DNA of 64,000 bases from Ignavibacteriales bacterium (GTDB taxonomy: Bacteria > Bacteroidota > Ignavibacteria > Ignavibacteriales > Melioribacteraceae): positions 1 through 64,000 of the forward strand of contig JAIOYW010000001.1 of the NCBI GenBank assembly GCA_021740915.1, given 5' to 3'. The notes under the pieces are model-generated. The model ran no database searches and had not been told where the DNA came from. It saw only the letters and a list, made by a program, of their open reading frames with translations. Shown one piece after another: positions 5,910-30,242 of this stretch. The number at the start of each line of letters is the position of its first letter. Within the stretch, counting starts at the first letter, position 1. The position numbers and the translations under genes were made by a program.

Positions 5910-7385
5910 ATGATTGAAAACATTCAAATCATCTTACTAATTAGTGTTTTTGTGATAATGTCGGTGTTGATGTTCTTAAGAAAAATGCCGGCATTAATGG
6001 CTCTGCCTTTCATGGCAATTCTAATTGCATTCATTGGTGGTATTAATAGCGATGGTGTTTTAAGATATGTCATTGGATTCGGGACTCTAAAACTTCACAG
6101 CGCATACACAGTTGCAATGTTTGGCAGTATGTTAAGTATTCTATTGCAAAAAACAGGGATTGCGGAAAATATTATTAAAAAGGGCGCTGAACTGACAGGT
6201 GATAATCCCTTTATAATAGCATTTATTATGCTCTTGATGATAACACTCCTATTCACAACAATCGGTGGACTTGGTGCAATCATTATGGTAGCAACAATCG
6301 TTCTTCCGATTATGTCTTCTGTTGGACTAAGTCCGTTGACAACTGTGGGAATATTTCTTATCGGATTGAGTGCCGGTGGAACGCTCAATGCGGGCAACTG
6401 GGCTGTATATACAAGTGTTATGGGGTTAAAAATATCTCAAATATTACCTTTTGCATCATTAATGTTCTTTCTGACTTTATTTGCTTCCGTTATTTTTATT
6501 ACGATTCAGCTTTACCGGGATGGTCAGGAAATTAATCCGCTTCGTTATTTAATTACTTTTTTTCTTGTGTTGACTCCATTCATCTCGTTGTTTGTCATCT
6601 ATAAGTATTTACTTCCATTAAATGTGGTTGAGGTAGTTGATCAAATTTTTACGATGACGGGAAATATTATTGGTTTTGTATCCAGGACAATTGTAATCCT
6701 TCTATTTATATATGCACTTATTAAACCTTTTATCATTCAATATCTTAAAAAAACTCATGACCCTGTGAGTTATCTTGCTCCCATATACCCGCTATTACTC
6801 ATTCTGCTGTTTGAAATGGACTTTATTGCTGCTTTTGTTGCCGGGCTTTTGTTTGTATTTCTGTTGACATATAGGAAAGGTTCGTTAAATCTGCTCATCC
6901 AATCTATTTTTGAGGGGGGAAGTATTGTAATGCCCGCCGTGGTACTTATGTTCGGAATTGGAATGCTGCTTGTAGCTATTATGGGACCAGGCACCCCTCT
7001 CTCTGAATATCCGGGCGGATGGCCCGTACTGGGATTGTTAAAGCCTGTTTTGGCTAATATTGTACCACAGACTAAATTGACCTATATCCTTATATTTGCG
7101 TTTCTTGCTCCCCTTGCTTTATACAGAGGCCCTTTTAATGTCTGGGGCATGGGTTATGGACTTGCTGCAGTGTTCCTCGCGAGCGGATTAGCTCCCGGTG
7201 CTGTTATGGGATTGCTTCTGTCGGTTGGACAGATACAGGGAATAAGTGATCCCACAAATACTCATAATGTTTGGCTTGCAAATGAAATGAGGGTTGATGT
7301 TCAGAAAATACTGTGGACTACTCTTCCATATACATGGATATTGGCAGTCATAGGATTAATTATTGCAGCAATAATGTTTATGTGA
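5910..7385 (+). CDS. Inner-membrane permease, GntP/CitMHS-like ion-transporter superfamily
   Basis: A 491-residue, very hydrophobic protein with roughly twelve predicted membrane spans and no signal peptide. Two glycine-rich re-entrant-like stretches are visible: [18 protein letters not shown] in the first half and [14 protein letters not shown] before the C-terminal [13 protein letters not shown] motif. This organisation resembles gluconate, citrate and C4-dicarboxylate carriers of the ion-transporter superfamily; I cannot fix the subfamily or substrate. It is the first gene of the operon, 13 bp before the hydantoinase-like gene, so it probably imports the substrate (likely an organic acid or acidic sugar derivative) processed by the downstream enzymes. 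The promoter must lie in the 152 bp divergent gap. Confidence 0.75.
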
Positions 7386-7398
7386 TGAGATATCAGAT

Positions 7399-9558
7399 AT
7401 GAGCCGCAAAATAAAAATCGGTATAGATGTTGGAGGAACATTCACCCACGCTGTAGCAATAGATCTGAAGGATTATTCCATTGCAGGGAAGGCTTGTGTA
7501 CCGACCACACATTCTTCGGATTCTGGAGTTGCTGCCGGGGTTGTACAGTCACTGCACACTCTTCTTGAATGCAGCAAAATATCAAACGACGAAGTTGTTC
7601 TTATCGCACATTCCACAACTCAGGCTACAAATGCTTTATTAGAAGGAGATGTGGCCACTGTTGGTATCATTGGAATAGGCAAGGGGCTTGAAGGCAGAAG
7701 AGCCAAGAATGAAATTAATATTAAAAACATAGCACTTTCTCCAGGAAAATATCTTAAAACTTTTTTTAAATTTTATGATAATTCGAAGGGTTTGAATAAA
7801 TCTGAGATACTTAAACTTATTGACCAGTTACTTGATGAAGGGTCTGAGATATTTGTTATCAGTGAAGCTTTTGGTGTTGATGATCCTTCAAATGAAGAAA
7901 ATATTGCCGCTATAATTAATAAAATGGGATATCTTGCAACAGCAGCCAGCAGTATATCAAAACTATACGGACTCAGGGTAAGGACAAGGACTGCTGTATT
8001 AAATGCTTCAATGATGCCCAAAATGCTTGAGACGGCAAATAAGACTGAAAAATCGATAAGAGAGAGTGGAATAAAAGCCCCATTGATGGTAATGCGCTCC
8101 GATGGCGGTATTATGGATATTAACGAAATGCGGCGAAGGCCGATACTCACAATGCTATCGGGTCCGGCGGCGGGTGTTGCAGCTGCGCTTATGTATGTTA
8201 AAATATCAGATGGAATTTTTCTTGAGGTAGGGGGTACTTCAACAGATATTTCTGTCATTAAAAATGGTAAACCTCAGCTTAAAAGTGCTCAAATCGGCGG
8301 AAACAGGCTTTATTTGAGGACTCTTGATGTAAGAACACTTGGCATCGCGGGCGGTTCGATTCCAAGAATACACAACAATGAGATTATTGATGTTGGTCCC
8401 AGGAGTGCTCATATTGCAAATCTTTCTTATGCAGCATACAGCAAATTTGAGGATTTTTCTGATCTTGAGATTGAGAAGATACGCCCCCTGAAAGGCGACA
8501 GCAATGATTTTCTTGGTTTAATATCTCCCAAACATCCCGGTGAAAAATTTACTATTACGCCTACAGGGGCATCCTATTACTTAGGTAAAGTAAAAATTCA
8601 TGGGCATGGCGCTGCAAATTTTACTGCTTTAAAAAGTGCTTTTGCGCGGTTCGGACAAATAATGGGCAAAAATCCTGCCGATCTCGCTAATAAAATACTC
8701 CAGATATCGGCAGAAAAGATAAAACCTGTGATTGCCGGTCTTTCGCGGGAGTACAAACTCGACAAGGATTTGATTAAGTTGATTGGCGGAGGAGGAGGTG
8801 CATCTGCATTGGTACCTTACACCGCAGAATATCTTGGATACGATCATTCTATTGCCGAAAATACAGAAGTGGTTTCAGCTATTGGAGCTGCTCTTGGACT
8901 TATCCGCGACAGTGTTGAGAGGAACATCATTAATCCATCGGAAACCGACCTGCAATCAATCCGAAAGGAGGCGTACGAATCAGTTCATAATATGGGCGCT
9001 TCAGAGGAGAGTATTGAGGTTTCAATAGAAATCGACTCCAAAAATAAAAAAGTCATAGCTATTGCAACAGGTTCAAGTGAACTCAGAGTTAAGGATCCGG
9101 ATTTCAAACCACTTAGTACTCCGGAATTATCAAAAATAGCAGCAATTTCTTTCAAGGTTCCACAATCATCAGTCGAATTTTTTGATAATACAGATTTTTT
9201 ATTTGCATTCTATGTGCGAAATACCGTTAAACGAATGTTCGGACTTTTTAAAGAAACTGAAAATCATCTTAGAGTAATCGATAAAGAGGGAACGATAAAA
9301 CTGCAGATAAATAACTGCCTTCTTAGAACCGCATCTAAGCAAACAATTAAATCAGTACTTAAAGAGATTGTTTCTGAGCTTACCATTTTTGGTGATGCCG
9401 GGGCTCTCGTTCCGGATATCTTTCTCGTTATTGGCAACAGAATTCTTGATCTGACCGGATTAATAAACGAAAATCAGATAATGAGTCTTATCGATATTGA
9501 GATTGCAAATTATCTTTTGACAGAAAAAATAATTTTAATTGCAGCAAAGAAACGATGA
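7399..9558 (+). CDS. Hydantoinase/oxoprolinase family protein (HyuA-like)
   Basis: A 719-residue cytoplasmic protein of the ATP-dependent hydantoinase/5-oxoprolinase family. The N-terminal part (about 1-190) begins [17 protein letters not shown], the phosphate-1 loop of the ASKHA-type fold, and contains [21 protein letters not shown]. The middle (about 190-500) holds [26 protein letters not shown] and [12 protein letters not shown], typical of the Hydantoinase_A domain. Family members use ATP to open cyclic amides or activate carbonyl groups (5-oxoproline, hydantoins, acetone). The usual HyuB/oxoprolinase-B partner is absent; instead two FAD-protein genes, NanE and glycan enzymes follow. It overlaps the next gene by 4 bp (ATGA), implying coupled translation. 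The substrate is unknown; a cyclic amide or lactam derived from an amino sugar is one guess. Confidence 0.85.
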
Positions 9559-10418
9559 GTAAAAACTCAATTATTTTTGACTATTGTATCTGGGGAGCAA
9601 CATTGCAGGGTATTGCTGCTGCTTCTCTGCTTCGCGGACGCGGGTTTAGGGTGAAAATATTAAATCGTTATGGGTTTCCTGGGGGAAGCATCACCGAATC
9701 TTTAAATTGCTCTCAAAAGATTCCCAAAACATTACCTGAAAACCTCTCCTTAATTTTCGAATCACTCCGGAAAAAGAAACAATATTTTTTAAAATCAGAC
9801 ACTGACAAATATTTGTTCAACCCGGAAGTTGTGAAAATATCATTGCAGGAATTTCTTGAAGATATCGGGACGGATGTTCTGTATCATGTTGTTCCGAAAG
9901 AGGTTACTAAAGAATTTGATACGATGAAAATAACGCTCATTGCAAAGGAAGGAATAATTGAGGTTTATTCTAAAAATTTTATAGATGCTTCAGATGATCT
10001 TTCTGGTATTATGAGCGAAAGCAGCGTAAATGCCTCCTTCCGTTACTTTTATAATATTTTTATTAATTCAGGCCAAAAATTTACTCTTCCGGCTGAATTT
10101 AATATCTATAATCAAGTAATACTGGAAGATGGGAGAGTCTGGTATTCATTTGCACTTCAGCCAATTAACAATCTTTTTTCAGAATTATCTGCACAAATAC
10201 TCATTAATAAACTTTCCGAACATTTCAATAATACTGGCAGGAGAATTCAACTGCTGCCGGCTCAGTCACACATACAAAAAAGTGCATCGATTCCGGAAAC
10301 ATCAGAAGGAACGATAATCGCTAATTATGAAAATGATTCCTTTCACTTTTCACCTGATGAAGAGTTCATTAAGGCAAAAGAATTTGAAATCAGGCTAACA
10401 AAAAAAATAACATGCTAA
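9555..10418 (+). CDS. Truncated FAD-oxidoreductase-like protein, likely partner subunit
   Basis: A 287-residue protein whose N-terminus resembles the Rossmann start of the oxidoreductase at 11107. The nucleotide-binding loop reads [14 protein letters not shown] instead of GxGxxG, the second strand ends in Asn-Arg where the related protein has Glu-His, and GFPGGS matches GFVGGM. The C-terminal half of PF12831-type enzymes (the AGRCIS...MPT cofactor segment) is missing. It may be a paralog that has lost FAD binding and now pairs with the complete enzyme two genes downstream, or it may bind another ligand. It overlaps its neighbours by 4 bp upstream and 7 bp downstream, so it is under selection for coordinated expression rather than a decayed remnant. 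Function not known. Confidence 0.6.
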
Positions 10419-11107
10419 TATTGGACAAGTTAAGGTATAAACTTATTGTTTCGGCCCAGGCAGAAGATGATTCCCCATTTAATTCACCACAGGGAGTTCT
10501 GGGTTTTGCATTATCTGCAATAGCCGGCGGAGCAGCAGGTATTCGATCTGAAGGCTTTGAAAAAACACTTCACATTAAGAAAAATGTTGAGGTGCCTGTT
10601 ATTGGATTGCTGAAGTCAAGATTTGATGATGGATTTGTGAGAATTACCGGTACTTTCAGCGATTTTGAAAAAATGATGGACACCCGGTGTGATATGATTG
10701 CAGTTGACGGGACATATCGTGTAAGAGAAGGGTTTACAGGACCCGATTTTATCAGAGAGATAAAGAATCGGTTTGATTACCCCGTGATGGCTGATATCTC
10801 AACTTTTGAGGATGGAATTGCCTGTATAGAAGCCGGAGCTGATTGCATCTCAACGACTTTAAGCGGTTACACTCCGGAAACATCAGTCCAAAAAGTAAAA
10901 GGACCTGACTTTGAGCTTGCAAAAAAATTAGTGATGTCCGCAAAAATTCCTGTCATCGCTGAAGGTCGGATTAACACTCCATCTGATGCTGCACAGATGA
11001 TCCGGAACGGTGTTTGGGCAGTTGTAGTCGGTACAGCGATTACGCGACCGCATGTAATTACTTCCTGGTTTAATTCTGCAATAACCGAAGCCGCAAAGGA
11101 GTATTAA
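10412..11107 (+). CDS. nanE: N-acylglucosamine-6-phosphate 2-epimerase (NanE family)
   Basis: A 231-residue TIM-barrel protein of the size expected for NanE, which interconverts N-acetylmannosamine-6-phosphate and N-acetylglucosamine-6-phosphate. Visible family features are VSAQAEDDSPF near the start, GGAAGIRSEG, VIGLLKS (position of the catalytic lysine), CDMIAVDGTYRVR, the second-barrel-half motif ADISTFEDGIACIEAGAD, and the C-terminal phosphate-binding AEGRI plus VVVGTAITRP. It begins inside the previous gene and its stop shares one base with the next start (TAATG). No neuraminate lyase or ManNAc kinase lies nearby, so its substrate probably comes from another route than sialic acid, perhaps the GH94 plus phosphohexomutase steps. 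Activity on a related 2-epimer pair is possible. Confidence 0.88.
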   Translation: MLILDKLRYKLIVSAQAEDDSPFNSPQGVLGFALSAIAGGAAGIRSEGFEKTLHIKKNVEVPVIGLLKSRFDDGFVRITGTFSDFEKMMDTRCDMIAVDGTYRVREGFTGPDFIREIKNRFDYPVMADISTFEDGIACIEAGADCISTTLSGYTPETSVQKVKGPDFELAKKLVMSAKIPVIAEGRINTPSDAAQMIRNGVWAVVVGTAITRPHVITSWFNSAITEAAKEY

Positions 11108-12417
11108 TGCAACTTTTGCACGAATATGATATCATTGTTGCGGGAGCAGGCATAGCTGGAATCAGTGCGGCAATAAAAGCAGGGAATATGGGAGCAAGTG
11201 TGCTCCTGATTGAACATTATGGTTTTGTCGGCGGCATGTCCACAGCGGGAATGGTATCTCCGTTCATGAAGCATTCAATTAATGGCGTTTCTCTTGTTGA
11301 GGGTGTATTTCAGAGTATCGAAAAAGAAATGAGAAAAATTGGCGGTATGATCGATAATGGGTTTTATGCAAATTCTTTCAGATCAGCGGCTTTCAATTTG
11401 TTGAGTTCAGCCAATGTTACCGTACTTTTGCACTGCGAGATTGAGGCACTCAAAAAAAATGAAAGAGAAATCACAGAAATCCACCTTTTTGCAGAACAAA
11501 ATAGATTTGAGATAAAGGGAAAAGTCTTCATTGATACAACTGGTGATGCTTATCTGGTTTATACGGGTGGTTTTAATTGGGTGAAGGGTGATGAAAAGAC
11601 AGGATATCTGCAGGCGCTAACTCTATTTTTCAGGATGGGAGGAATTAATCTTGTAAAAGTTGCTGAATATGCTTCTGCAAACAGACATGATTTTTTTAAT
11701 TGGATGGACTACAATTTTAATTTTGACAAAATAATCTCTGTTGCCGGTTTTTTCAGTTTTGTTAAACGCGCTATCAATGAAGGACGACTCCCAAAAGAAA
11801 TCGAATATATTTTTTTTACAACACTCCCGGAAAGCGAGGAAGGGTCTTTTAACACTTCAAACGTACTTGGACTTGATGGATCAACAAGCAGTGATCTTAC
11901 AAAAGCAGAACTTATCGGACGTAAACAGGCAAATGATGTGGTAAAGCTTTTGCAGGATGAGGTCCCCGGATTCGAAAATTCTTATCTGCTCGAAACTGCT
12001 ACACAAATCGGAGTGAGAGAGACAAGAAGAGCCATAGGCGATTACGTTGTCACAGGAATTGATATAAGTTCTGGTTCAAAATTTGAGGACGCCATAGCGA
12101 GGGGATGCTATGGAATTGATATTCATGGGCAGAAAGGTGAAAACAGCAGAATGGAGCATCTTAGGGAAGGAGAATATTATGAGATACCTTTCCGTTCACT
12201 TATGGTTAAGGATGCAGACAATCTTCTTGTTGCAGGCAGATGTATTTCATCGACAAGAGAAGGTCATTCAGCCCTGCGAATTATGCCGACATCTTCGGCA
12301 ACAGGTGAAGCGGCGGGAGCTGCGGCAGCACTCAGTGTGAGAAAAGGAACAGGATTGAGACAACTAATTTATTCTGATCTTTTCAGGGAATTAAGCTACA
12401 ATCTAAAAAACCTCTAA
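11107..12417 (+). CDS. FAD-dependent oxidoreductase (PF12831 type)
   Basis: A 436-residue soluble flavoprotein. The N-terminus YDIIVAGAGIAGISAAIKAG is a canonical GxGxxG dinucleotide-binding loop, followed by a strand ending in LLIEHYG and by GGMSTAGMVSPF, typical of PF12831 enzymes. The C-terminus has NLLVAGRCISSTREGHSALRIMPT... and GEAAGAAAAL, the second cofactor segment. PF12831 oxidoreductases are often found beside carbohydrate-active enzymes and are presumed to oxidise sugars or sugar derivatives, but the substrate is rarely known. The gene starts on the last base of nanE and is 4 bp from the phosphohexomutase gene. With the truncated paralog at 9555 it may form a two-subunit enzyme. 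Its presence with a nucleophile-less GH38 hints at oxidative sugar chemistry; that is inference. Confidence 0.85.
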   Translation: MQLLHEYDIIVAGAGIAGISAAIKAGNMGASVLLIEHYGFVGGMSTAGMVSPFMKHSINGVSLVEGVFQSIEKEMRKIGGMIDNGFYANSFRSAAFNLLSSANVTVLLHCEIEALKKNEREITEIHLFAEQNRFEIKGKVFIDTTGDAYLVYTGGFNWVKGDEKTGYLQALTLFFRMGGINLVKVAEYASANRHDFFNWMDYNFNFDKIISVAGFFSFVKRAINEGRLPKEIEYIFFTTLPESEEGSFNTSNVLGLDGSTSSDLTKAELIGRKQANDVVKLLQDEVPGFENSYLLETATQIGVRETRRAIGDYVVTGIDISSGSKFEDAIARGCYGIDIHGQKGENSRMEHLREGEYYEIPFRSLMVKDADNLLVAGRCISSTREGHSALRIMPTSSATGEAAGAAAALSVRKGTGLRQLIYSDLFRELSYNLKNL

Positions 12418-12421
12418 GATA

Positions 12422-13849
12422 ATGGAAATAATATTCGGAACCGACGGTTGGCGTGGAATAATTGGGGCAGAGATTAATCTCGAATCAGTTGCAAGGGTTG
12501 CATACGCATTCTCGGAATATATACTTCAAAAAAAACAACAACCTGGAATAGTTATCGGATATGATGGACGGGCATATTCGGAGAGATTCGCTTCTGTTTT
12601 CGCTGAATATTGTCGTTATAAAAAAATTGAAGTAATTCTATCTGATAGAATTGTACCGACACCGGTTGTTTCCTGGTATGTTAAGAATTTTAATCTTGAT
12701 GCAGGTGTAATGATTACTGCATCCCACAATCCTCCGGAATATAATGGTATTAAATTTAAGGACTTTTACGGAGGCCCTTTTAGAACAGAAGAGACTTTAA
12801 AGATCGAAAAATTGTTGCCTGCCAGTCTAACAACAGAATTTAAGCAAAAGCCATTAACAACTGATATTATAACACCTTATCTATCTTACTTAAAATCAAT
12901 ATTTAACTTTAACATAATTAAAAACAGTGACATTTATGTGGCAATTGACTCAATGGGCGGTGCCGGAGGGAAGCTCCTTTCTGATCTGCTGACCAGTATT
13001 GAGATTCCGAATGAGGCTATTTACGAAATCCCTGCACCCGATTTTTATAGCAGAAATCCTGAACCCATTGAAAAAAATCTTAAGCCTTTAGCAAAAATCA
13101 TTAAGGAATCTTCGGACTACTCTTTTGGCGTTGCGACAGATGGAGATGGAGACAGACTTGGTGTACTTAATGAAAAAGGTGAATGGTTCTCAGCTCAGGA
13201 CACTATTATGCTTTTCACTGATTATCTGATCAGGCAAAAAAAACTCGAAGGATCGATTATCAAGACAAATTCTGTGACTAAAAGGCTTGATAAATTATGT
13301 GCAAACTTTAACATTCCAATCGATGAAGTGCAGGTTGGATTTAAATATATCACTGAGAAGATGATTAATACAAAAAGCATTGCGGGATTCGAAGAAAGCG
13401 GGGGATACGGTTTCGGCAGTCATCTTCCCGAGCGGGATGGCATATTTTCAGCTTTGTTGTTAATGGAGATGATGGCAGTCTCAGGGATGAAAAAACTATC
13501 TGAATATGCTGCAGGTGTGATCGAACAATATGGCAGCGATAATTATTGCAGGATTGATTTAGCTTATGAGAAAGTGGACAGAATTGAGCTGCTTCCCTCC
13601 TTATATAATAAAAAGCCAAAAACATTTGCCGGGATAAATGTCAGAGAAATAATTCCGTATTTTAGTTCACATGGTATCATTAACGGTACAAAATTTGAGT
13701 CACAGGATGGCTTTTCCTGGCTTTTAATCAGGGCTTCGGAGACTGAACCAATTCTAAGATTTTATTCTGAATCACATTCGATCAAGGATGCGGAAAATAT
13801 GATTTCAACAGCTATCAATCAGCTGACAAATATTCCCAGGAAAATATGA
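12422..13849 (+). CDS. Phosphoglucomutase/phosphomannomutase-type phosphohexomutase
   Basis: A 475-residue member of the alpha-D-phosphohexomutase superfamily, moving phosphate between C1 and C6 of hexoses. All four signatures are present: the phosphoserine loop TASHNPPEYNG with Ser101, the metal loop TDGDGDRLG with Asp240/242/244, the sugar-specificity loop GFEESGGYGFG, and the phosphate-binding RASETEPILRFY near the C-terminus. The start FGTDGWRG is typical. Sequence alone does not decide between glucose, mannose or N-acetylglucosamine phosphates. In this operon it would convert the sugar-1-phosphate released by the GH94 phosphorylase to the 6-phosphate used by NanE or glycolysis. It overlaps the HAD gene by 4 bp (ATGA). 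Confidence 0.93.
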   Translation: MEIIFGTDGWRGIIGAEINLESVARVAYAFSEYILQKKQQPGIVIGYDGRAYSERFASVFAEYCRYKKIEVILSDRIVPTPVVSWYVKNFNLDAGVMITASHNPPEYNGIKFKDFYGGPFRTEETLKIEKLLPASLTTEFKQKPLTTDIITPYLSYLKSIFNFNIIKNSDIYVAIDSMGGAGGKLLSDLLTSIEIPNEAIYEIPAPDFYSRNPEPIEKNLKPLAKIIKESSDYSFGVATDGDGDRLGVLNEKGEWFSAQDTIMLFTDYLIRQKKLEGSIIKTNSVTKRLDKLCANFNIPIDEVQVGFKYITEKMINTKSIAGFEESGGYGFGSHLPERDGIFSALLLMEMMAVSGMKKLSEYAAGVIEQYGSDNYCRIDLAYEKVDRIELLPSLYNKKPKTFAGINVREIIPYFSSHGIINGTKFESQDGFSWLLIRASETEPILRFYSESHSIKDAENMISTAINQLTNIPRKI

Positions 13850-15209: not shown

Positions 15210-17984
15210 ATGAAAAGAATTTATCACGTTATATCTAATACACACTGGGACAGGGAATGGAGATTCCCGTTTCAACGTAACCGGCAGATGCTTGTGAACA
15301 TGATTGATGAAACCATAAGAATATTGGAAAATAATAAAGATTATAGGGCTTTTCATCTAGACAGTCAAACAGTCGTCCTTCGCGATTATCTCGAAATAAA
15401 ACCTCAAAATGCCGAAAAGATTAAAGGACTGGTCGAATCTGACAGGCTTCTCATTGGTCCATGGTATATACTGCCTGAGGAATATCAGGTCGGAGGCGAG
15501 AATCTGATTCGTAATCTGCTGCTGGGGCATAAGATCGCAAAAAAATTTGGCAAAGTATCCAAAATTGGATATTCACCATTCTCATGGGGACAGATATCAC
15601 AACTTCCCCAGATTTACAGTGGCTTTGGAATTGATGTCATAATGTTTTATCGTGGAATTAATTCGATTGATAGTCCCAAAGCTGAATTTCTATGGGTAGG
15701 CGCTGATGGAACAGAAACGATTTCCTCAAGGTTTTCAACCATGCCTCGTTACAATTTTTATTTCTACATATATCGTCCTGTGAGGTATAATGAGGACTAC
15801 TACCAATCGGAATATAAATGGGAGCATGACAGAATTCCATTTCATTTTGCTGACGATCTCCAGGGGAAAGAGGATTATTTCCTGCTTGAAGAAGAACCGG
15901 GTTATTATCCGGAAAATATACGACCCTGGGTAGAAAAAATAATAAAAGATCAGGCTGATGATTTCACAACACAAAATGTGATTTGGATGGAAGGACACGA
16001 TTCAAGCGGACCTGATGAAATGACTGTGAGGATAATTAATGATATTCGCAAAGAATTTCCAGAGCTTGATGTCAGACATTCCACACTATTGGAATACGCA
16101 ACTGCGCTGAAGAGTGACATCAATACTGGAAGTTTAGTGAAAGTTCATGGAGAAAGACGTAGTGCGCAGTTTGACAGAAGAAGCGGCAATCTATATGGTT
16201 ATACGACTTCAGCACGGATGGATTTGAAGATATTGAATTTTGATGCTGAGCGGAATCTGCAATATTATGCCGAACCTTTCAATGGCTTAATGACTGCTCT
16301 TGGTTGCGACACTCAGGATAAATATGTTGAGCTGGCATGGGATCTGCTGATCCAAAATTCGGCTCATGATTCTATTGGTGGTTGCAGCCTGGACGAAATC
16401 CATGATGATATGATTACCCGATACCGCCATTGCATCGAGATTTCAAGAGGAGTCTTTGAAAGATCAATTAAAATGTTAATTCTTATGACGAATAGCATTA
16501 AAATTCTTGGAGTAAATAAAGGTTCTTTTATACTGACTGTCATTAATTCTTTATTTTATACAAGAAAAGAGGTGTGCAGGATATCCGTTGATGTACCTAA
16601 ATCGATGGATAAAGGTCATATTAAAATATTTGACTATACAGGCGCTGAAATTAATATCTCAATTCAATCAAAAACGGATATTCAACCTGTGCTTGAACAG
16701 ATGAAAAATCGACCGATGTATATTGATATGGTGAGATATATTATTGATGCAGAGTTGGATGGTATTCCCTCAATGGGTTACAAACAATTCAGGGTGGAAC
16801 CTGTTGAAGACAATCGACTCACCAATAATACAGATATAAGAGTAAGAAAAAGCAATATTCTTGAAAATGATTTTCTAAGAGTTGAAATTCTGGGCAATGG
16901 GAGTTTTAACGTCAGTTCCAAAATGACCGGTAAAACATTTTCCGGTCTTGGATTCTTCGCGGATGAGGGTGAGGCTGGTCATGCCTGGGTTCATACTCCT
17001 ATCGGGCCATTTATTGACTCGAAAAATGTAAATGCTGAGATAGTAAATTTAGTTTCAAATGAGCTGGTTCAGTGTTCACGGATAATATTCTCAATACTTG
17101 TGCCGGAAGACCTTAAGAGCAGAGGGGAAGGGCTTGGCAATTCCAGAGAAATAAAAATAGAGTACACTTTATCACTCCGCAAGACAGATAAATATCTTGT
17201 AATGGAAGGTCATATTGAGAACAATGCGGAAAGTCATAGAATGAGGATAATGTTTCCGCTCAATCTTTCTGCCAGTCATTCTTTCGCAGAAGGGCAGTTT
17301 GACGTAGTTGCACGGAGTACCAAAAGGATCGATTCAACCGGATGGATAGAACAACCGATGTATGATTACCCGATGCATCATTTTGTCGATCTCTCCGATT
17401 CAAAGGATGGTTTTGCTGTTCTTGTAGATGGTTTGAAGGAATATGAAGTGCTGAATGATGAGGAGCAGACATTAGCCATCACTGTATTCCGGGGATTTGA
17501 GTATAAAATACAGCCCAGTTCTCTTGAGGATTACTCGTATAAAAAAGGTTCTCAAAATCTTGGAAAGAATCATTTTCGGATAGGATTATTTCCTCATAAG
17601 GGTACATGGTCCGAGGGTCGCGTAATGGAACAGGCGCATATTTTTAATTATCCTTTGCGAGCTGTTCAGTCAGGTATCACAAAAGGATTTCTACCATCTG
17701 AAATTTCTTTTATATGGTTTTCTTCTCAGGAAATAGTTTTCTCGACAATTAAAAAACCGGAACAGAGTTCTGGAAATAATTTAGTGATCAGGATTTATAA
17801 TCCCACGGAAAATGAAATATCAACAACTCTCGACTCAATTCTTCCGATAGAGAGCATCACAGAAATTAATCTTGAGGAAACAGAAAGTCATTCTGAAATC
17901 ATTGAGAAAAAAGGTTCATATATTCTTTTCTTAAAGCCAAAACAAATTAAAACTTACTTAATGAAAATAAACTCCATTCTATAA
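15210..17984 (+). CDS. GH38 alpha-mannosidase-like protein lacking the family nucleophile
   Basis: A 924-residue cytoplasmic protein (no signal peptide) with the full GH38 layout: N-terminal catalytic (beta/alpha) domain, three-helix region, and C-terminal beta-sandwiches from about residue 440. Zinc ligands His12 and Asp14 (NTHWDREW) and His386 (NSAHDSIGGCS) are kept, as is the GHD motif at 262-264, the acid/base position in E. coli MngB-like enzymes. However, the segment YSPFSWGQISQLPQI (121-135) aligns with the family's YLPDSFG...QLP motif, and Phe124 replaces the catalytic nucleophile Asp, which is also a zinc ligand. The protein is thus either inactive, a binder, or works by another mechanism. 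It shares one base with the next gene (TAATG). Alignment is from memory of family motifs and should be confirmed. Confidence 0.88.
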   Translation: MKRIYHVISNTHWDREWRFPFQRNRQMLVNMIDETIRILENNKDYRAFHLDSQTVVLRDYLEIKPQNAEKIKGLVESDRLLIGPWYILPEEYQVGGENLIRNLLLGHKIAKKFGKVSKIGYSPFSWGQISQLPQIYSGFGIDVIMFYRGINSIDSPKAEFLWVGADGTETISSRFSTMPRYNFYFYIYRPVRYNEDYYQSEYKWEHDRIPFHFADDLQGKEDYFLLEEEPGYYPENIRPWVEKIIKDQADDFTTQNVIWMEGHDSSGPDEMTVRIINDIRKEFPELDVRHSTLLEYATALKSDINTGSLVKVHGERRSAQFDRRSGNLYGYTTSARMDLKILNFDAERNLQYYAEPFNGLMTALGCDTQDKYVELAWDLLIQNSAHDSIGGCSLDEIHDDMITRYRHCIEISRGVFERSIKMLILMTNSIKILGVNKGSFILTVINSLFYTRKEVCRISVDVPKSMDKGHIKIFDYTGAEINISIQSKTDIQPVLEQMKNRPMYIDMVRYIIDAELDGIPSMGYKQFRVEPVEDNRLTNNTDIRVRKSNILENDFLRVEILGNGSFNVSSKMTGKTFSGLGFFADEGEAGHAWVHTPIGPFIDSKNVNAEIVNLVSNELVQCSRIIFSILVPEDLKSRGEGLGNSREIKIEYTLSLRKTDKYLVMEGHIENNAESHRMRIMFPLNLSASHSFAEGQFDVVARSTKRIDSTGWIEQPMYDYPMHHFVDLSDSKDGFAVLVDGLKEYEVLNDEEQTLAITVFRGFEYKIQPSSLEDYSYKKGSQNLGKNHFRIGLFPHKGTWSEGRVMEQAHIFNYPLRAVQSGITKGFLPSEISFIWFSSQEIVFSTIKKPEQSSGNNLVIRIYNPTENEISTTLDSILPIESITEINLEETESHSEIIEKKGSYILFLKPKQIKTYLMKINSIL

Positions 17985-19101: not shown

Positions 19102-21492
19102 ATGAAAAACAAATATGGCTATTTCAGCGATGATTACAGGGAATTTATCATAACTGATCCGATGACACCCAGGCCATGGTTCAACTATATGTGGAATCAA
19201 AATTATGCCGGACTTATATCGCACACAGGAGGGGGATTCAGTTATCTGGATTGCCCCAGAGATAACAGAATTTCAAGAATGCGCTATAATTGTCTCCCCT
19301 GGGATAGACCCGGGCGATATGTTATACTCAAGGATACTGACTCTGGAGAATTCTGGTCACTAAGCTGGGCGCCCACAATTTCTGTGAAATATGATAAATA
19401 TGAATGCCGGCATGGTCAGGGATATACCGCTATAACCACTATTTACAATGGAATAGAAGCGACTATTACCTATTTCGTGCCAAGAGATAGAAATGCAGAA
19501 GTTTGGTATGTGTCAATAAAGAATGTTTCGGGACATGACAAAAAACTAGAAATTTATGGATTTCAGGAATTGATGATGGGCAATGCGCTTAATGATATCA
19601 TTAATCAGCCCAACGACAAACATTTCACAGAGATAAGATTTGATAAAGATCAGATGATGCTTAAAGCAACACGAAGATACTGGGTTCTTAATAAAAAAGT
19701 ATCAGTTGCACAGCCTAATATTGATTGGAAATACGAATTAAGTTTCACGACCAGTCTGAATATAGAGGGTTTTGATGGAAGTCTGGATAAATTTATTGGA
19801 AAATGGCGTTCAGAAGCTAATCCAATCTCTGTTGAGACCGGAAAAATGTCCGATTCTGAGATTACTGCCGGTGATCCGGTTGCTGCATTAAAATCATCTC
19901 TTTTAATTAATGCTGACTCTGAGACGGAGTTCTCATTTGTTCTTGCAATCAGAGAAAAATCTGCTCCGGAAAATGATGATGGAATCTACCTCCGGAATCC
20001 GGTTAACAGTCGGGCAGAATTACAGAAAGTAAAGGAATACTGGACAAATTATTTATCACATGTTTCAGTTAAAACTCCTGATGAAGATGTGAATCTAATG
20101 CTGAATGTCTGGAACCAGTATCAAACTGCCGTGACTTTTGATATGGCAAGAAATTCAGGTTATTATCATGGCGGACTTTTATTTGGAACCGGTATCCGGG
20201 ATCAGTTCCAGGATATTCTGGGAGTTGTAATCGCTGAGCCTGATAGAGTCAGGAATCGTTTATTGAATGCATTGAAATTTCAGTTTTCAAACGGATCAAC
20301 CCTCCATAATTTCTTTAAAATGACCGGAAGCGGTGAAAAAACCAATCATTCAGATACACCTCTCTGGATTCCTTTTGGTCTTATTGAATATTTAAATGAG
20401 ACCGGCGATTTATCTATCTTCAAAGAAAATGTGCCATTTTATGATGATGGGGACGCTACTGTTTATGATCATATGGTAAGAGCACTCGATTTTTGCATTG
20501 CTGCAACAACAGAACGGGGAATGCCAAAAATAATGAACGGTGACTGGAATGACACTCTTGATCATATCGGGCCGCACGGTAAGGGCGAAACAGTCTGGGG
20601 CGCTTTTTTTCTTGCGTATGTTTTGAAAAAAAGTTTTGAAGTGATTGAATTACATAATGATTGGACTACATTAGAAAGATGGAAATCAGCTTATGAAAAA
20701 CTTGGAAAAGTGACAAATGATCTCTGTTGGGACGGTGAATGGTATCTAAGAGCATTCAGGGATAATGGAAAACCGGTTGGTTCAAAAGTCCACAATCAAG
20801 GGAAGATATTTCTGAACACACAGACCTGGTCTGTTATCTCCGGGCTTGCACCAAAAGACCGGGCAAAAAGTGCACTTGATTCGTGTAAGAAATACCTGGA
20901 AACACCTTTTGGTATGCAGATAGTTTATCCGGCGTATAGAGAAATTGAAGATGATATTGGGCTTATCAGCAGGTGTGTGCCAGGGAAAAAGGAGAATGGA
21001 GCAGTATTCAATCATGCGTCTTCCTGGTTTATTCTTGCCTCGATACTTGCAGGGAATAATGAGGATGGCTTCCGTATTTATAAGAAAATGCTCCCTGTCA
21101 ACTCTTCAGAGGAAATTGATAAATATGAAGTTGAACCATATGTTTTTGCCGAGTATATTACAAGTCCGGAGCATGAGACTGCAAATCAGGCAAGTCACTC
21201 ATGGTTAACCGGAACAGCGGTCTGGATGTACCGGATTGCGCTTGATCATATTCTCGGTTTCAGAACATCTGCTTCCGGATTCACAATTAAACCGAACATC
21301 CCTGCTCATTGGGATGGATTTACTCTCAATCGCCGATTCAGAGGTAAAGATATCATGATTGCCGTTAATAATAGAAAAGAAGGTGAAGGGAATAATAATA
21401 AAGTCATGATAAACGGAAGTGAATTTTTTGGAGATATTATTCAAACAAAAGATTTTACCGAAAAAATAATCAATATTGAAATTGATATGTGA
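19102..21492 (+). CDS. GH94 family disaccharide phosphorylase (cellobiose/chitobiose phosphorylase-like)
   Basis: A 796-residue protein of usual GH94 length. The N-terminal beta-sandwich starts KYGYFSDDYREFIITDPMTP, like cellobiose and N,N'-diacetylchitobiose phosphorylases. The (alpha/alpha)6 domain has GTGIRDQFQDILG (361-373) and NGDWNDTLDHIG (479-490), with Asp481 at the general-acid position. These inverting enzymes use phosphate to split a beta-disaccharide into alpha-sugar-1-phosphate and a free sugar, saving ATP. No signal peptide, so it is cytoplasmic. As the last gene of the operon its product would feed the phosphohexomutase and possibly NanE. GlcNAc-containing substrates fit NanE best, but glucose-type specificity cannot be excluded from sequence. 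Confidence 0.9.
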   Translation: MKNKYGYFSDDYREFIITDPMTPRPWFNYMWNQNYAGLISHTGGGFSYLDCPRDNRISRMRYNCLPWDRPGRYVILKDTDSGEFWSLSWAPTISVKYDKYECRHGQGYTAITTIYNGIEATITYFVPRDRNAEVWYVSIKNVSGHDKKLEIYGFQELMMGNALNDIINQPNDKHFTEIRFDKDQMMLKATRRYWVLNKKVSVAQPNIDWKYELSFTTSLNIEGFDGSLDKFIGKWRSEANPISVETGKMSDSEITAGDPVAALKSSLLINADSETEFSFVLAIREKSAPENDDGIYLRNPVNSRAELQKVKEYWTNYLSHVSVKTPDEDVNLMLNVWNQYQTAVTFDMARNSGYYHGGLLFGTGIRDQFQDILGVVIAEPDRVRNRLLNALKFQFSNGSTLHNFFKMTGSGEKTNHSDTPLWIPFGLIEYLNETGDLSIFKENVPFYDDGDATVYDHMVRALDFCIAATTERGMPKIMNGDWNDTLDHIGPHGKGETVWGAFFLAYVLKKSFEVIELHNDWTTLERWKSAYEKLGKVTNDLCWDGEWYLRAFRDNGKPVGSKVHNQGKIFLNTQTWSVISGLAPKDRAKSALDSCKKYLETPFGMQIVYPAYREIEDDIGLISRCVPGKKENGAVFNHASSWFILASILAGNNEDGFRIYKKMLPVNSSEEIDKYEVEPYVFAEYITSPEHETANQASHSWLTGTAVWMYRIALDHILGFRTSASGFTIKPNIPAHWDGFTLNRRFRGKDIMIAVNNRKEGEGNNNKVMINGSEFFGDIIQTKDFTEKIINIEIDM

Positions 21493-21554: not shown

Positions 21555-24551
21555 ATGAGCCAGAGATTTAGAACTTACGGATTGAAATGCATTACCATAT
21601 TATTGTTTCTGACAGCCCTCCATTCCTCCTATGCTCAGAAAGGAAAAATATCGGGCACCGTTTTTGATGATCAGCTAAATGATCCTCTAATTGGTGTAAA
21701 TGTATTTATTGAGGGTACAACTACAGGAGCGACTACTGATCCACAAGGACGATTTGTAATTATCAATATTAATCCCGGAAAATATTCTGTAACAGCGAGT
21801 ATGGTGGGATTCGCACGGGTAACAGTCAGTGACGTAAGAGTTTCAATTGATCGTACCACAGAAATTAATTTCAGATTAAAAGATGAATCTATTCAGATTG
21901 AACAAATAATTATTAAGGCGGAAAAGCCGAAAATTGTTAAGGACAGGACTTCTTCGTCCACGACAATTGAGGATGAACAGATTAAAGCCGCACCTATTGA
22001 AGGTTTAAGAGGCGCAATGGATCTCTCCGCAAGTTTTGAAAAGAATGAAAAGGGAGATTATTCAGTAAGAGGATCCGGATCAAACGAAGTACAGTTTATG
22101 GTAAACGGAGTTACTCAGTCCACCACAAATACGAGTATTCCCGGTTACGGAGGCGCGGAAAAAGCTGACAATTCGTGGAAATTTGATGTCAATCCACTCG
22201 GTATTCAGCAGATACAGTTAATTACAGGCGGATTTTCTGCGGAATATGGTAATGCTCAGGCCGGGGTTGTAAATGTCGCTTTAAAAGAGGGCGGGCAAAA
22301 GTTCAACGGTGAGGTTCGAATGGAATACCGCCCTGCAGGTCAATATCATTATGGACCTTATATCTACGATCAATCGAACTTTGAATGGCAGCGATGGGGA
22401 AATCTGGATTATTGGTTCCAGCGTCAGAATGTTGTTCTGAAAGATCTGGATATTAATCTATATAATAAAATGTATGTATATAACACCGCTACGCTGCAGG
22501 ATTCACTTTCCGCAAAAAAAGAAATTGAATGGGCTCACAAGGTTTGGGTTGATAATCATTCTCCGTCTGAAGAAAATCCATTAGGCGTCTATGATTACCG
22601 TGACAGAGCTTATAAAAGATATCTTATAGGTTTTGGCGGCCCATTAGGCAAAAGACCTGATATTCTCAAATTTTACTTTTCAGGAGAATACAGGAGTAAT
22701 CCGACAAGACTTCCTACTCCGGAAAAAGATCAGGTTTATCAGAATTATATATTAAACGTAACCGCAACTCCATTACTCGGGCATAAATTTCAGGCTACAG
22801 GGACATTTCAGAAATATCGAGGCGGTCTTTTTTCAGGATCATCAGATATCAGATGGGCAGGCTTAAACTCTGTTGCCGAATCCGGAAAATATCATGTTTA
22901 TTTTGAACCGGTCAGAACTGAACAGACAGTTTCAGGTAGTTTTAAGTGGGTTTATACTATCACAAATACATCTTTTCTCGAGACAAATGTTTCGCATCAA
23001 AATGAAAAATATGAACTGCCGTATCTTTACCTTGTTACTATTAATAGTGAAAATGACAGGTTAGATAGTTTAGGTGACCCGCAGGGAGTGGTTTTAAAGA
23101 GGGGAATATGGTGGGAGTCAAGCTATTTCAGACAGCTCGAAGCAATAAGTACGAATTTTTATCAGGATTACCGGGCAAAAAACTATAATCTGAAAGCTGA
23201 TTACACAAATCAGGTGACTCAGACTAATCTCCTTAAAGCTGGTATGCGTTTGAATTACTGGGATGTTTTTAATAACGGTGTTAATTCAAGTTTCCGGGCG
23301 AACAGCTATGTTGCACATTATGCCGTGGCTGAATATTATAGGGCTTTTCCGCTTGATTATTCTTTTTATATCCAGGATAAAATGGAATATGAAGGAATGG
23401 TTGCTAATCTTGGCTTGAGGATTGAGGGTTATAATTTTCAGAGCAACCAGCCTCTGGACAGGTTCAGTCCATTCTATCAGGGGACTCAGGGACCCGGTTA
23501 TACCGGATCTCCTTTAACTAAATCTTCAGAATGGAAGAGCGTGATTCTTCCCAGACTCGGAATATCTTTCCCTATCGGTGAGAATACGGCATTTCGTATT
23601 CAGTATGGTCATTTTGCCTCTATGCCCGCATTCACTCAGGCTTTGACAACTAAAACATTCAGTGGATGGAGTGCGATAGGGAATCCTGATCTGGAACCAA
23701 AAAAAACAATCAATTATGAATTTGGGCTTCAGCAAGTAATAGAAAGTGATTTCAGAATTGACGCTGTTTTATACTATAACGACCGTGTTTCCCAGATCGA
23801 TGTTCAAAACATTGCCGCACTCACAGGCGATCTGCGGAATGGTTCCGGGTATCTTGAAAGTGATCCGTTGTATCTCTATCAGTCCTATGCGAATAATGCG
23901 TTCGGATCTACGATTGGATTCGAGTTGACATTTGAAAAAATTAATATTGACAGATGGACATACCGGTTAAGCTACAACCTGTCGCATACAACCCGGGGAA
24001 GATATGGAAGCAGTGTCGTTTTCCCCGATGAATTGATAAACCTTACAACCAGGGAAGCTACGGGTGAATTTTTATCTGAATCAGACAGGACTCACAATTT
24101 CCGGGGAATGGTTCAGTATTTCCTGAGAGATAAAGAGGGGATTGAATTTTTAGGAATTAAACTATTTGAAAATTCAGTATTCAGCATTTCTTATACAGCC
24201 AAATCAGGAATCCCATTTACTTATCCACCGGAATCAGCGCTTAAAGGAATATTAAATAACAGGCGATATCCTCTGGAATCCAATTTTGATTTCAACTTTA
24301 ATAAAAATATTATGATTGACGATTACAAAATAATTGTCGGTTTAAGGATTATGAATCTTTTTGACAATAAATGGCTTACACCCATGGACTCTTATAATGA
24401 ACAGGATAACAGAAAGGATTGGGTGGAGAAGGGCGTTACAGTTGATAATCCGGGCATTGATCCAACAAGGAAAAGTTATCTCCTGTATCAATACCGTGCT
24501 TATCGGAATGTTCCACGACAAATATACTTTACTTTAGGATTCGGGTTTTAA
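21555..24551 (+). CDS. TonB-dependent outer-membrane receptor with N-terminal regulatory-like domain
   Basis: A 998-residue outer-membrane protein. Signal peptide residues 1-27 end in SYAQ. A carboxypeptidase-regulatory-like beta-sandwich follows (about 30-115: GKISGTVFDDQLNDPLIGVNVFIEG), then a plug domain (about 125-245, with VRGSGSNEVQFMVNGV and GGFSAEYGNAQAGVVNV) and a large barrel ending in aromatic FGF. This is the SusC-like architecture, but no SusD partner is adjacent. It starts 62 bp after the GH94 gene and may share the transcript or have its own promoter in that gap. The next gene begins 4 bp downstream. It may import oligosaccharides for the upstream operon; equally it could belong to the secreted-protein/PorV-like module that follows. 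Confidence 0.9.
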   Translation: MSQRFRTYGLKCITILLFLTALHSSYAQKGKISGTVFDDQLNDPLIGVNVFIEGTTTGATTDPQGRFVIININPGKYSVTASMVGFARVTVSDVRVSIDRTTEINFRLKDESIQIEQIIIKAEKPKIVKDRTSSSTTIEDEQIKAAPIEGLRGAMDLSASFEKNEKGDYSVRGSGSNEVQFMVNGVTQSTTNTSIPGYGGAEKADNSWKFDVNPLGIQQIQLITGGFSAEYGNAQAGVVNVALKEGGQKFNGEVRMEYRPAGQYHYGPYIYDQSNFEWQRWGNLDYWFQRQNVVLKDLDINLYNKMYVYNTATLQDSLSAKKEIEWAHKVWVDNHSPSEENPLGVYDYRDRAYKRYLIGFGGPLGKRPDILKFYFSGEYRSNPTRLPTPEKDQVYQNYILNVTATPLLGHKFQATGTFQKYRGGLFSGSSDIRWAGLNSVAESGKYHVYFEPVRTEQTVSGSFKWVYTITNTSFLETNVSHQNEKYELPYLYLVTINSENDRLDSLGDPQGVVLKRGIWWESSYFRQLEAISTNFYQDYRAKNYNLKADYTNQVTQTNLLKAGMRLNYWDVFNNGVNSSFRANSYVAHYAVAEYYRAFPLDYSFYIQDKMEYEGMVANLGLRIEGYNFQSNQPLDRFSPFYQGTQGPGYTGSPLTKSSEWKSVILPRLGISFPIGENTAFRIQYGHFASMPAFTQALTTKTFSGWSAIGNPDLEPKKTINYEFGLQQVIESDFRIDAVLYYNDRVSQIDVQNIAALTGDLRNGSGYLESDPLYLYQSYANNAFGSTIGFELTFEKINIDRWTYRLSYNLSHTTRGRYGSSVVFPDELINLTTREATGEFLSESDRTHNFRGMVQYFLRDKEGIEFLGIKLFENSVFSISYTAKSGIPFTYPPESALKGILNNRRYPLESNFDFNFNKNIMIDDYKIIVGLRIMNLFDNKWLTPMDSYNEQDNRKDWVEKGVTVDNPGIDPTRKSYLLYQYRAYRNVPRQIYFTLGFGF

Positions 24552-24555
24552 TATT

Positions 24556-26604: not shown

Positions 26605-26605
26605 A

Positions 26606-27553
26606 ATGTCGGTTATGAAAAAGATAATATTATTTATTCTTATTCTATGCTCTGCTGCAAATATTATAGCGCAGGAGTTTAAGAAAGCCGGTACCGCTGG
26701 ATTTGTATTCCTTGGCATTCCGGTTCACGCCAGAACAGCCGCACTTGGTGAGGCGTCCATTACTCTTCAGGATCTCAATTCAGCAGCAATTTTTATTAAT
26801 CCCGCGGTGCTGGACTTTGGAACCGACGAACATTCGGTAGCTGTCTCTTATTCGCCATGGATAGCTGATATCAAACATTATTCAGCAGCCTATTCTTTTT
26901 CTACCGAATTCGGTAGATTTGCTATTGGAGCCAATGTCCTTGATTATGGAACATTTCAACGGACTGTTAAATCAACCGGACAGCGATTTTTTGAAATTGT
27001 TGGTACTTATTCTGCAAATGCTGTTGCATTATATGCAGGATATGCAAAAAGATTAACGGACAAATTTTCGTTCGGATTTAATTTTAAGTACGTGAAAGAA
27101 AGTATTGATATTTATTCTGCATCGAATGTTCTTTTCGATGGAGGAATGATTTATTTCACAGGATTCAGGAATCTTAGAATAGCTGCAACTGTGCAAAATT
27201 TTGGTGTGGATGCCAAATTTATTAATGATTCTTTCAGAATGCCGTCAGTTTTAAGGCTGGGTATAGCAGATGATTTTTATCTTGATAATGCGGACACATA
27301 TCGGCTTACTTTACTTGTAGAAGCGCTTCACCCTGGTGATAATGAAGAACGACTTAATCTGGGAACTGAGTTCAGTTTCATTCGTTTATTTCAGATTAGG
27401 GCTGGTTACAAATTCTTCTATGATGAAGAAAGCCTGAGTCTGGGAATCGGAATTTCACCCGGAGTTTATCTGCCGGTCAATCTTGATTTCTCATGGTCCG
27501 ATTATGGGAGGCTTGGTAATTTAATGAGATTCTCACTTTCGATGGGGATATGA
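26606..27553 (+). CDS. PorV/PorQ family outer-membrane protein
   Basis: About 316 residues. The signal peptide ends ANIIAQ and is followed by KAGTAGFVFLGIPVHARTAALGEASITLQDLNSAAIFINPAVL, the typical start of PorV/PorQ family barrels (FadL-like, 14 strands in PorV). PorV shuttles T9SS cargo to the surface attachment complex; this copy may serve the secreted protein encoded just upstream. The frame extends back to 26552 inside the previous gene, but the ATG at 26606, with AGG about 5 nt upstream, lies immediately after the upstream stop and gives a proper signal peptide. The ATG at 26615 is also possible. It overlaps the next gene by 4 bp. Confidence 0.78.
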   Translation: MSVMKKIILFILILCSAANIIAQEFKKAGTAGFVFLGIPVHARTAALGEASITLQDLNSAAIFINPAVLDFGTDEHSVAVSYSPWIADIKHYSAAYSFSTEFGRFAIGANVLDYGTFQRTVKSTGQRFFEIVGTYSANAVALYAGYAKRLTDKFSFGFNFKYVKESIDIYSASNVLFDGGMIYFTGFRNLRIAATVQNFGVDAKFINDSFRMPSVLRLGIADDFYLDNADTYRLTLLVEALHPGDNEERLNLGTEFSFIRLFQIRAGYKFFYDEESLSLGIGISPGVYLPVNLDFSWSDYGRLGNLMRFSLSMGI

Positions 27554-28269: not shown

Positions 28270-28282
28270 TCTCTGAAGAATT

Positions 28283-28993: not shown

Positions 28994-28996
28994 GAG

Positions 28997-30136: not shown

Positions 30137-30242
30137 AAATAATCAGTTACAAAAACCCACTGCTTAGTGGAGAATTTCAATACTCAAATGCAAATGGGCT
30201 GAGGATGTAAACTCAGAATAGTATTTATTGATTTTTAATTTT

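Follow-up and report, generated by a model that had tools for sequence, protein, structure and literature searches.

A GH38 branch lacking the catalytic nucleophile suggests cleavage of sugars with phosphate instead of water

The first 64,000 nucleotides of contig JAIOYW010000001.1 from an Ignavibacteriales bacterium (assembly GCA_021740915.1), here called the window, encode a protein of glycoside hydrolase family 38 (GH38) in which a phenylalanine, Phe124, stands where retaining alpha-mannosidases carry their catalytic nucleophile. The same loss is found in GH38 proteins of several phyla, where it is accompanied by new arginines and often by a gene for one subfamily of HAD enzymes, which suggests that a wide branch of the family cuts sugars with phosphate and not with water. 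We see an about even chance that the nucleophile-less proteins are zinc-dependent inverting glycoside phosphorylases on the GH38 fold that feed the HAD enzyme. The fuller reading, for which our confidence falls a little short of even, is that this multi-phylum branch comprises the first zinc-dependent alpha-mannoside (or alpha-N-acetylmannosaminide) phosphorylases, served by a dedicated HAD beta-phosphomannomutase; they would have arisen by exchange of the Asp nucleophile, along with the Tyr that partners it, for a hydrophobic or small residue and an arginine pocket. The gene and its altered motif are located as follows.

15210..17984, + strand: nucleophile-less GH38 protein of 924 amino acids (sequence, Pfam, alignments, AlphaFold2 model, solved-fold matches)
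15552..15593, + strand: motif KIGYSPFSWGQ, codons 115-128, with the F124 codon at 15579-15581

The reading frame starts with ATG and is unbroken. Its product contains the Pfam domains GH38N, Alpha-mann_mid, GH38C, and GH38C2, all above cut-off, and by sequence the closest solved proteins are the E. faecalis and S. pyogenes members of GH38. An AlphaFold2 model (predicted local distance difference test, pLDDT, 91.5; predicted template modelling score, pTM, 0.93) matches the solved folds 3lvt (Z 41.9 over 783 residues), 5kbp (38.6 over 835), and 2wyh (38.5 over 828). With all Pfam GH38 domains and the GH38 fold, the protein belongs to GH38 by sequence as well as by structure, yet it stands outside the retaining alpha-mannosidases of that family, for which an Asp that serves as nucleophile and zinc ligand is required. 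The only NCBIfam match is MngB mannosylglycerate hydrolase (NF007331), which covers most of the length with 472.6 bits; this is far under the equivalog cut-off of 1138, and the nucleophile is missing.

The active site of the streptococcal homologue SpGH38 serves as reference. According to its description (PMC2815779), zinc is bound by H13, D15, H351, and the nucleophile D125, with D232 as the acid/base; D125 is said to be stabilized by R149 and Y192, the latter through a hydrogen bond, and D352 contacts swainsonine. The original prediction had stated that His12, Asp14, His386, and the GHD motif at 262-264 of the window protein are intact and that Phe124 replaces the nucleophile and zinc ligand. 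Both statements are borne out: the zinc ligands H12, D14, and H386 and the acid/base D264 (within G262-H263-D264) are retained by sequence and alignment, as in retaining alpha-mannosidases, and phmmer aligns GYSPFSWG of the window with GYFPDTFG of the solved E. faecalis GH38, so that Phe124 faces the nucleophile Asp. W17 and R148 occupy the places of SpGH38 W18 and R149, and D264 and D387 (the place of SpGH38 D352) are invariant across the compared GH38 sequences. Relative to the GH38 retaining alpha-mannosidases (SpGH38, 2wyh/2wyi; E. faecalis, 3lvt/5kbp), the window branch thus shares fold, domain order, zinc ligands, and acid/base, but it lacks the Asp nucleophile, has Arg in place of the Tyr partner, and carries R18 and R174 in addition.

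A match to the window protein was found in 32 of 58 relatives' genomes. Within the close clade, all 18 loci that cover the site have Phe at position 124 (GYSPFSWGQ; locus L022 has no coverage there), none has the canonical Asp, and the surrounding stretch is nearly invariant, which makes decay or chance unlikely and agrees with the earlier judgement that the gene is not decayed. At the DNA level, 395 genomes of the phylum were searched for the pattern of the motif (window match 15567-15593); 13 contain it, the own genome included, and the backward control of this pattern gave no match among the genomes listed. A sequencing or frameshift artefact at F124 was rejected in view of the motif in the 18 relatives and the DNA pattern in other genomes.

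The substitution reaches far beyond this clade. A scan of species genomes with the close-clade alignment, of whose at least 582 matches the best 80 were kept and which therefore favours relatives of the window, gave Phe at position 124 in 47 loci, Thr in 11, Ser and Cys in one each, and Asp in 19, with one locus uncovered; later samples added further Ser and one Ala. The nucleophile-less loci, mostly from metagenome-assembled genomes (MAGs), bear labels that include Ignavibacteriota, Bacteroidota, Bacillota, Planctomycetota, Verrucomicrobiota, Lentisphaerota, and Spirochaetota. H12, D14, and H386 are retained in all members of the 80-locus set wherever covered, and the same holds for these three and D264 in the nucleophile-less sequences that were read. 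With F, T, S, C, and A all found at 124, the phenylalanine as such matters little; such freedom would be expected if an anion from outside replaced the nucleophile. On the tree, at least two changes between Asp and other residues are required, either one loss followed by a regain or several losses, for a tree built by a quick method with a long-branch outgroup and 23 open forks. The Ala-bearing protein (L310:1465-4134; TPASWGQ) shows in nature the nucleophile-to-Ala exchange that crystallographers have introduced into GH38 mutants. The own genome also holds a distant paralogue that keeps the Asp (WNPDSFG; G000:C27:35835-36608, listed as L001 and L040).

The loss of a catalytic nucleophile is usually the first sign of a pseudoenzyme, and a catalytically dead protein with a sugar-binding or regulatory role has to be weighed here. 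We consider it very improbable, as the zinc ligands and the acid/base persist wherever the nucleophile-less sequences cover them, the surroundings of F124 are nearly invariant in the clade, and a second set of residues has been gained, not lost.

This second set emerged from a column comparison of 54 nucleophile-less and 19 Asp-type GH38 sequences of nearly full length. Position 180, the place of SpGH38 Y192, is Arg in 53 and Lys in one of the 54, and the Asp-type sequences all have Tyr there (19/19, raw sequences read by eye); the profile alignment stops just before this position, which leaves an uncertainty of one to two residues. R174 is present in 48/54 nucleophile-less sequences and in 1/19 of the Asp-type (plus one Lys), and R18 in 44/54 and 0/19, respectively, with Tyr, Trp, or His in the latter. 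Relative to the Asp-type, the conserved basic residues at columns 18, 174, and 180 are gains. R180 was found again in 14 of 14 further nucleophile-less paralogues from 20 genomes and in all 19 nucleophile-less proteins of a 291-genome sample (L300, L303, and L314 had been counted earlier too), and among 59 Asp-type paralogues, many of them far relatives, automatic alignment placed Arg at 180 once. These alignments thus indicate that nucleophile loss and arginine gain go together. In the same comparison, no acid clearly takes the vacant place, the possibility of another Asp there having been raised at the outset: acidic columns conserved at 80% or more in the catalytic and middle domains are nearly all common to the Asp-type. 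The main exception is E347 (0.83 vs 0.32), and others, such as column 461 (0.91 vs 0.47), lie in the C-terminal half, so replacement by a different acid has no convincing candidate.

Nucleophile loss is also linked to a gene for an HAD enzyme, which in the window lies directly upstream of the GH38 gene. Its count and those of other neighbours given below refer to 17 relatives' loci, with length limits and with some loci cut by contig ends.

13846..15201, + strand: HAD enzyme of 451 amino acids, proposed beta-sugar-1-phosphate mutase, possibly a phosphatase (motifs, Pfam; 15/17 loci)

With a profile seeded by ten HAD neighbours from these same loci, members of one HAD subfamily were found within 3.5 kb of 35/60 nucleophile-less and 0/19 Asp-type GH38 loci (p=1.8e-6), and of 22/32 versus 0/13 when both flanks had to be at least 3 kb (p=2.2e-5). 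The HADs of the window's branch match the profile at E values of about 1e-14 to 1e-21 (one partial gene at 4.5e-7), and the window HAD is 26-29% identical to those beside distant nucleophile-less GH38 genes. The side varies between subclades, with the HAD gene preceding the GH38 gene in some and following it in others; GH94-HAD-GH38 is the order in L283, and HAD-GH38-GH94 in L064, where the GH94 gene is cut by the contig end. R18 or Lys occurs in 33/34 HAD-linked and 12/21 unlinked nucleophile-less sequences (p=3.5e-4; hand count, some unlinked flanks being short), which is a tendency only, and R18 was therefore dropped as a marker of the HAD link.

Paralogues within single genomes point the same way. 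In 20 genomes chosen for holding a nucleophile-less GH38, 148 GH38 matches were listed and 80 stretches read, giving 89 open reading frames: 59 Asp-type (the motif of L213 is doubtful), 14 nucleophile-less counted before, 14 new ones, and 2 unreadable. The HAD lies within 200 bp of 4/14 new nucleophile-less genes and 0/59 Asp-type genes (p=9e-4); one Asp-type gene is 1346 bp from an HAD gene, which itself is 162 bp from a nucleophile-less gene. An HAD gene is present somewhere in 16 of these 20 genomes, and the four without it (G423, G425, G426, G441) all hold a subclade with a PFSYGQ-type motif. In 291 genomes from the class of R. cellobioparum, 13 have the HAD, 13 a nucleophile-less GH38, and 11 both (p=2.3e-16; p=8.7e-14 without the previously known G430 and G438); among the HAD matches, two are incomplete or come from short contigs, and since few GH38 candidates per genome were scored, at E 1e-60, distant members may have been missed. 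Of 19 stretches around further HAD genes, the HAD was confirmed in 18, and 8 of these have a GH38 within 2.1 kb; the six readable GH38 sites have Ser (4) or Phe (2), never Asp, and all carry R180.

Some loci have further neighbours. In L095, a nucleophile-less GH38 and the HAD are separated by a 795-amino-acid protein with only a weak GH38N match (10479-12863), which may represent one more divergent branch of GH38; two URO-D-type proteins are near. The T-type loci L098, L081, and L082 contain putative glycoside hydrolases with a GxGYxYP domain, two of them also GH127-like proteins, and a common substrate is possible.

The window HAD has the intact motifs D57-x-D59, T309/S310, K370, and E397-D398, in common with the DxD, S/T, K, and ED motifs of the HAD enzyme beta-phosphoglucomutase, but it differs by an N-terminal region of its own, a large cap insert, and a score under the cut-off for that enzyme. 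The HAD of L116 has 19 solved matches, of which 17 are beta-phosphoglucomutases (a single L. lactis enzyme accounts for many of these through its variants) and two are CbbY. From these features we infer that the HAD may be a beta-sugar-1-phosphate mutase. Sugar-6-phosphate enzymes stand close by: in L286 the HAD gene is followed by one with mannose-6-phosphate isomerase domains, and a BLAST search with that protein brought the loci with such an isomerase near the HAD and/or a nucleophile-less GH38 to seven, L286 included, among them L240 with the order HAD-GH38-isomerase. Two loci of the Asp-type set (L197, L213) have a weaker match too. In the window operon, the place of the isomerase is taken by NanE; both enzymes act on sugar-6-phosphates of manno configuration, in keeping with the preference of GH38 for that configuration.

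What has been observed is the residue pattern and how well it is conserved, the statistical association with the HAD, and neighbours that handle sugar-6-phosphates of the manno type. The simplest reading of this is an attack by phosphate with inversion, given basic residues at the places of the nucleophile and its partner, an intact acid, an open zinc site, and a frequent partner acting on phosphate esters. The zinc, freed of its Asp ligand, would hold inorganic phosphate together with R180, R174, and R18, so that on the beta face the phosphate stands in for the carboxylate of the nucleophile. From there it would attack C1 of an alpha-manno-configured glycoside directly, with Asp264 protonating the leaving group, and yield a beta-sugar-1-phosphate with inversion. 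The adjacent HAD, as a mutase of the beta-phosphomannomutase type, would then deliver the sugar-6-phosphate, which would pass to mannose-6-phosphate isomerase in several Clostridial loci or to NanE in the window operon. There, the beta-linked partner sugar may be processed in the same way by a GH94 phosphorylase and a GlmM-like mutase (both listed below). What is inferred in this scheme is that phosphate is the co-substrate, which sugar is cut and with what stereochemistry, and that the HAD acts as a mutase. The earlier proposal, that a GH38 clade has taken on a different mechanism or role, is supported, for a set far wider than had been proposed.

Several results weigh against this scheme. 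The placement of the arginines around the zinc comes from alignment. No HAD gene is near 25 of the 60 nucleophile-less loci (15 of them with a short flank) or within the stretch read for 10 of the 14 new paralogues, and 10 of the 18 HAD genes in the new stretches have no GH38 there. The PFSYGQ-type subclade has neither a nearby HAD nor R18, and four of its five genomes tested contain no HAD anywhere; conversely, L223 is HAD-linked and lacks R18. The HAD itself may be a phosphatase: the beta-phosphoglucomutase model (TIGR01990, cut-off 189.4) gives the window HAD 27 bits and that of L116 42.9, the subfamily profile has four weak solved matches of which three are beta-phosphoglucomutases and one a glycerol-3-phosphatase, and the nearest folds of the window HAD include CbbY, HDHD1A, phosphonatase, and phosphatases, with Z tied with beta-phosphoglucomutase, so that the fold suits a mutase and a phosphatase alike. 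ROK sugar kinases near four HAD loci (L082, L088, L098, L293) mean that free mannose may be the product there. Finally, a 2024 review (PMC10881899) describes xanthan oligosaccharides as being hydrolysed by the GH38 enzymes of a xanthan locus in Ruminococcaceae, which would be a counter-example should these enzymes be nucleophile-less.

Part of this evidence favours the main rival, an inverting hydrolase in which a zinc-bound water attacks C1, the arginines bind an anion of the substrate (uronate, sulfate, phosphate, or a carboxylate aglycone), and the HAD acts elsewhere. The retained H12, D14, H386, and D264 suit it, the vacated zinc site could hold the water, and a ROK kinase and mannose-6-phosphate isomerase near T-type loci fit the release of free mannose. 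With neither HAD nor R18, members of the PFSYGQ-type subclade are candidates for such an enzyme. For the branch as a whole we nevertheless regard it as unlikely, since it leaves unexplained why an enzyme of phosphotransferase type tracks the loss of the nucleophile and why no clear new base has appeared.

The phosphorylase reading also draws on the genes around the window GH38, which form a run of neighbours as follows.

5910..7385, + strand: permease-like membrane protein, first of the conserved run (judged from sequence, no Pfam match; 8/17 loci)
7399..9558, + strand: solitary HydA-type (hydantoinase/oxoprolinase A) protein (Pfam; 11/17 loci)
9555..10418, + strand: second, shorter FAD_oxidored-like protein, accessory (Pfam; 8/17 loci)
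10412..11107, + strand: NanE-type N-acetylmannosamine-6-phosphate 2-epimerase (PRK01130 250 bits, above the cut-off of 189; Pfam; 11/17 loci)
11107..12417, + strand: larger FAD_oxidored protein, accessory (Pfam; 9/17 loci)
12422..13849, + strand: alpha-phosphohexomutase, GlmM/archaeal-GlmM-like (TIGR03990 286.5 bits, under the cut-off of 439; 10/17 loci)
19102..21492, + strand: GH94 glycoside phosphorylase with catalytic and supersandwich domains (Pfam; 14/17 loci)

The GH38 gene starts 8 bases past the HAD stop, and its last base (17984) is shared with the next gene. The order permease-HydA-FAD-NanE-FAD-phosphohexomutase-HAD-GH38-GH94 is seen in several relatives, and MAGs with the labels Bacteroidales, Flavobacteriales, and Neomarinimicrobiota contain most of the run as well. 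The original prediction had placed the gene in a translationally coupled operon with two FAD-type proteins. The FAD genes are indeed there, as the third and fifth genes upstream, but directly adjacent are the HAD gene and, downstream, a serine-dehydratase/aldolase-like gene, the latter recurring in only one of the 17 loci (L031). The recurrent partner of the nucleophile-less set is the HAD, joined by GH94 in the window's branch, where the two are in 15/17 and 14/17 loci against 9/17 and 8/17 for the two FAD proteins. A FAD query of the distant loci hit beside a nucleophile-less gene only in L078, to which a Pfam scan of some of the neighbours added L290. The FAD genes therefore look accessory, and cofactor-assisted glycoside cleavage by FAD redox chemistry was rejected, as these genes are missing from about half of the relatives' loci.

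The presence of NanE in 11/17 loci of the window's clade raises another reading, a substrate-assisted retaining alpha-ManNAc (N-acetylmannosamine) hydrolase in which the axial 2-acetamido group attacks C1, the released ManNAc being phosphorylated and passed to NanE. The 1,2-trans arrangement of alpha-ManNAc is, by established chemistry, the geometry for such participation. Among the loci compared, however, NanE is confined to the window's branch (neither NanE nor HydA gave a sequence match near distant nucleophile-less members) and several Clostridial loci have mannose-6-phosphate isomerase, which makes ManNAc unlikely for the whole group. A ManNAc kinase would be needed, but no known sugar-kinase family was found in the ten operon proteins scanned (ROK genes occur elsewhere in the genome), and the arginines go unexplained; overall this reading is improbable. 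Less probable than any other in our view is a different zinc chemistry, that of a deacetylase-like enzyme built on a His-Asp-His triad as in NodB/ChbG-type deacetylases. The remaining zinc ligands do resemble the triad found in deacetylases of the glycoside hydrolase/deacetylase barrel superfamily at large, whereas the invariant D264 and D387 and the intact C-terminal GH38 domains fit an enzyme of glycosidic bonds.

As to the other members of the operon, the GH94 protein has cellobiose and chitobiose phosphorylases as closest solved relatives, and its score for chitobiose phosphorylase (442.6 bits) is slightly under those for cellobiose phosphorylases (459-462). It has the DDIG..SR context of 1v7v, but Cys at that chain's Val631, a residue which we take to bear on whether subsite -1 is specific for GlcNAc. 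The same contig also codes for a NagA that scores above cut-off (C26:224004-225134). The HydA-type protein, without a recognised HydB among the scanned neighbours, is 54-64% identical in relatives, mostly beside the same permease, and is perhaps a solitary ATP-using kinase or lactamase. Downstream of GH94 lies a receptor-like outer-membrane gene (21555-24551) with a 66% identical counterpart downstream of GH94 in L031, and further on two tandem proteins that resemble each other (28997-32141); the genes from 21555 to 32141 are perhaps the uptake part of the system.

The proposed phosphorylase would have a working analogue in the GH65 alpha-glucoside phosphorylases, which pair with beta-phosphoglucomutase so that an alpha-glycoside becomes a beta-sugar-1-phosphate and is then taken over by a HAD mutase. 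The GH65 fold, an (alpha/alpha)6 barrel, is unrelated to that of the window branch with its zinc and manno context. GH130 beta-mannoside phosphorylases likewise lead mannosides by phosphorolysis into mannose-phosphate metabolism. In a 2022 review (PMC8950772), GH65 enzymes perform inverting phosphorolysis of alpha-glycosides to beta-sugar-1-phosphate, and GH130 enzymes, unlike the GH38 branch proposed here, use a five-bladed propeller to convert beta-mannosides to alpha-Man-1-P. The same review names GH65, GH94, GH112, GH130, GH149, GH161, and GT108 as inverting phosphorylases, with GH130 and GT108 as the mannoside phosphorylases, both acting on beta-mannosides, and the family list there contains no alpha-mannoside phosphorylase (PMC8950772). 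Our literature search, covering titles and abstract openings among the matches listed and leaving preprints outside PMC and most subscription papers out of scope, returned no nucleophile-less GH38, GH38 phosphorylase, or beta-phosphomannomutase.

GH38 proteins are commonly named alpha-mannosidases. If the phosphorylase reading is true, the annotations of the branch's bacterial members in many phyla would be wrong on both the product and the energy yield, an alpha-mannoside phosphorylase would exist on a zinc scaffold, and alpha-mannosides would reach mannose-6-phosphate by one more route, in addition to a hydrolase with a kinase and uptake through the phosphotransferase system. The underlying sequence rule (nucleophile lost, arginine gained, sugar-phosphate enzyme adjacent) might also reveal hidden phosphorylases in other families.

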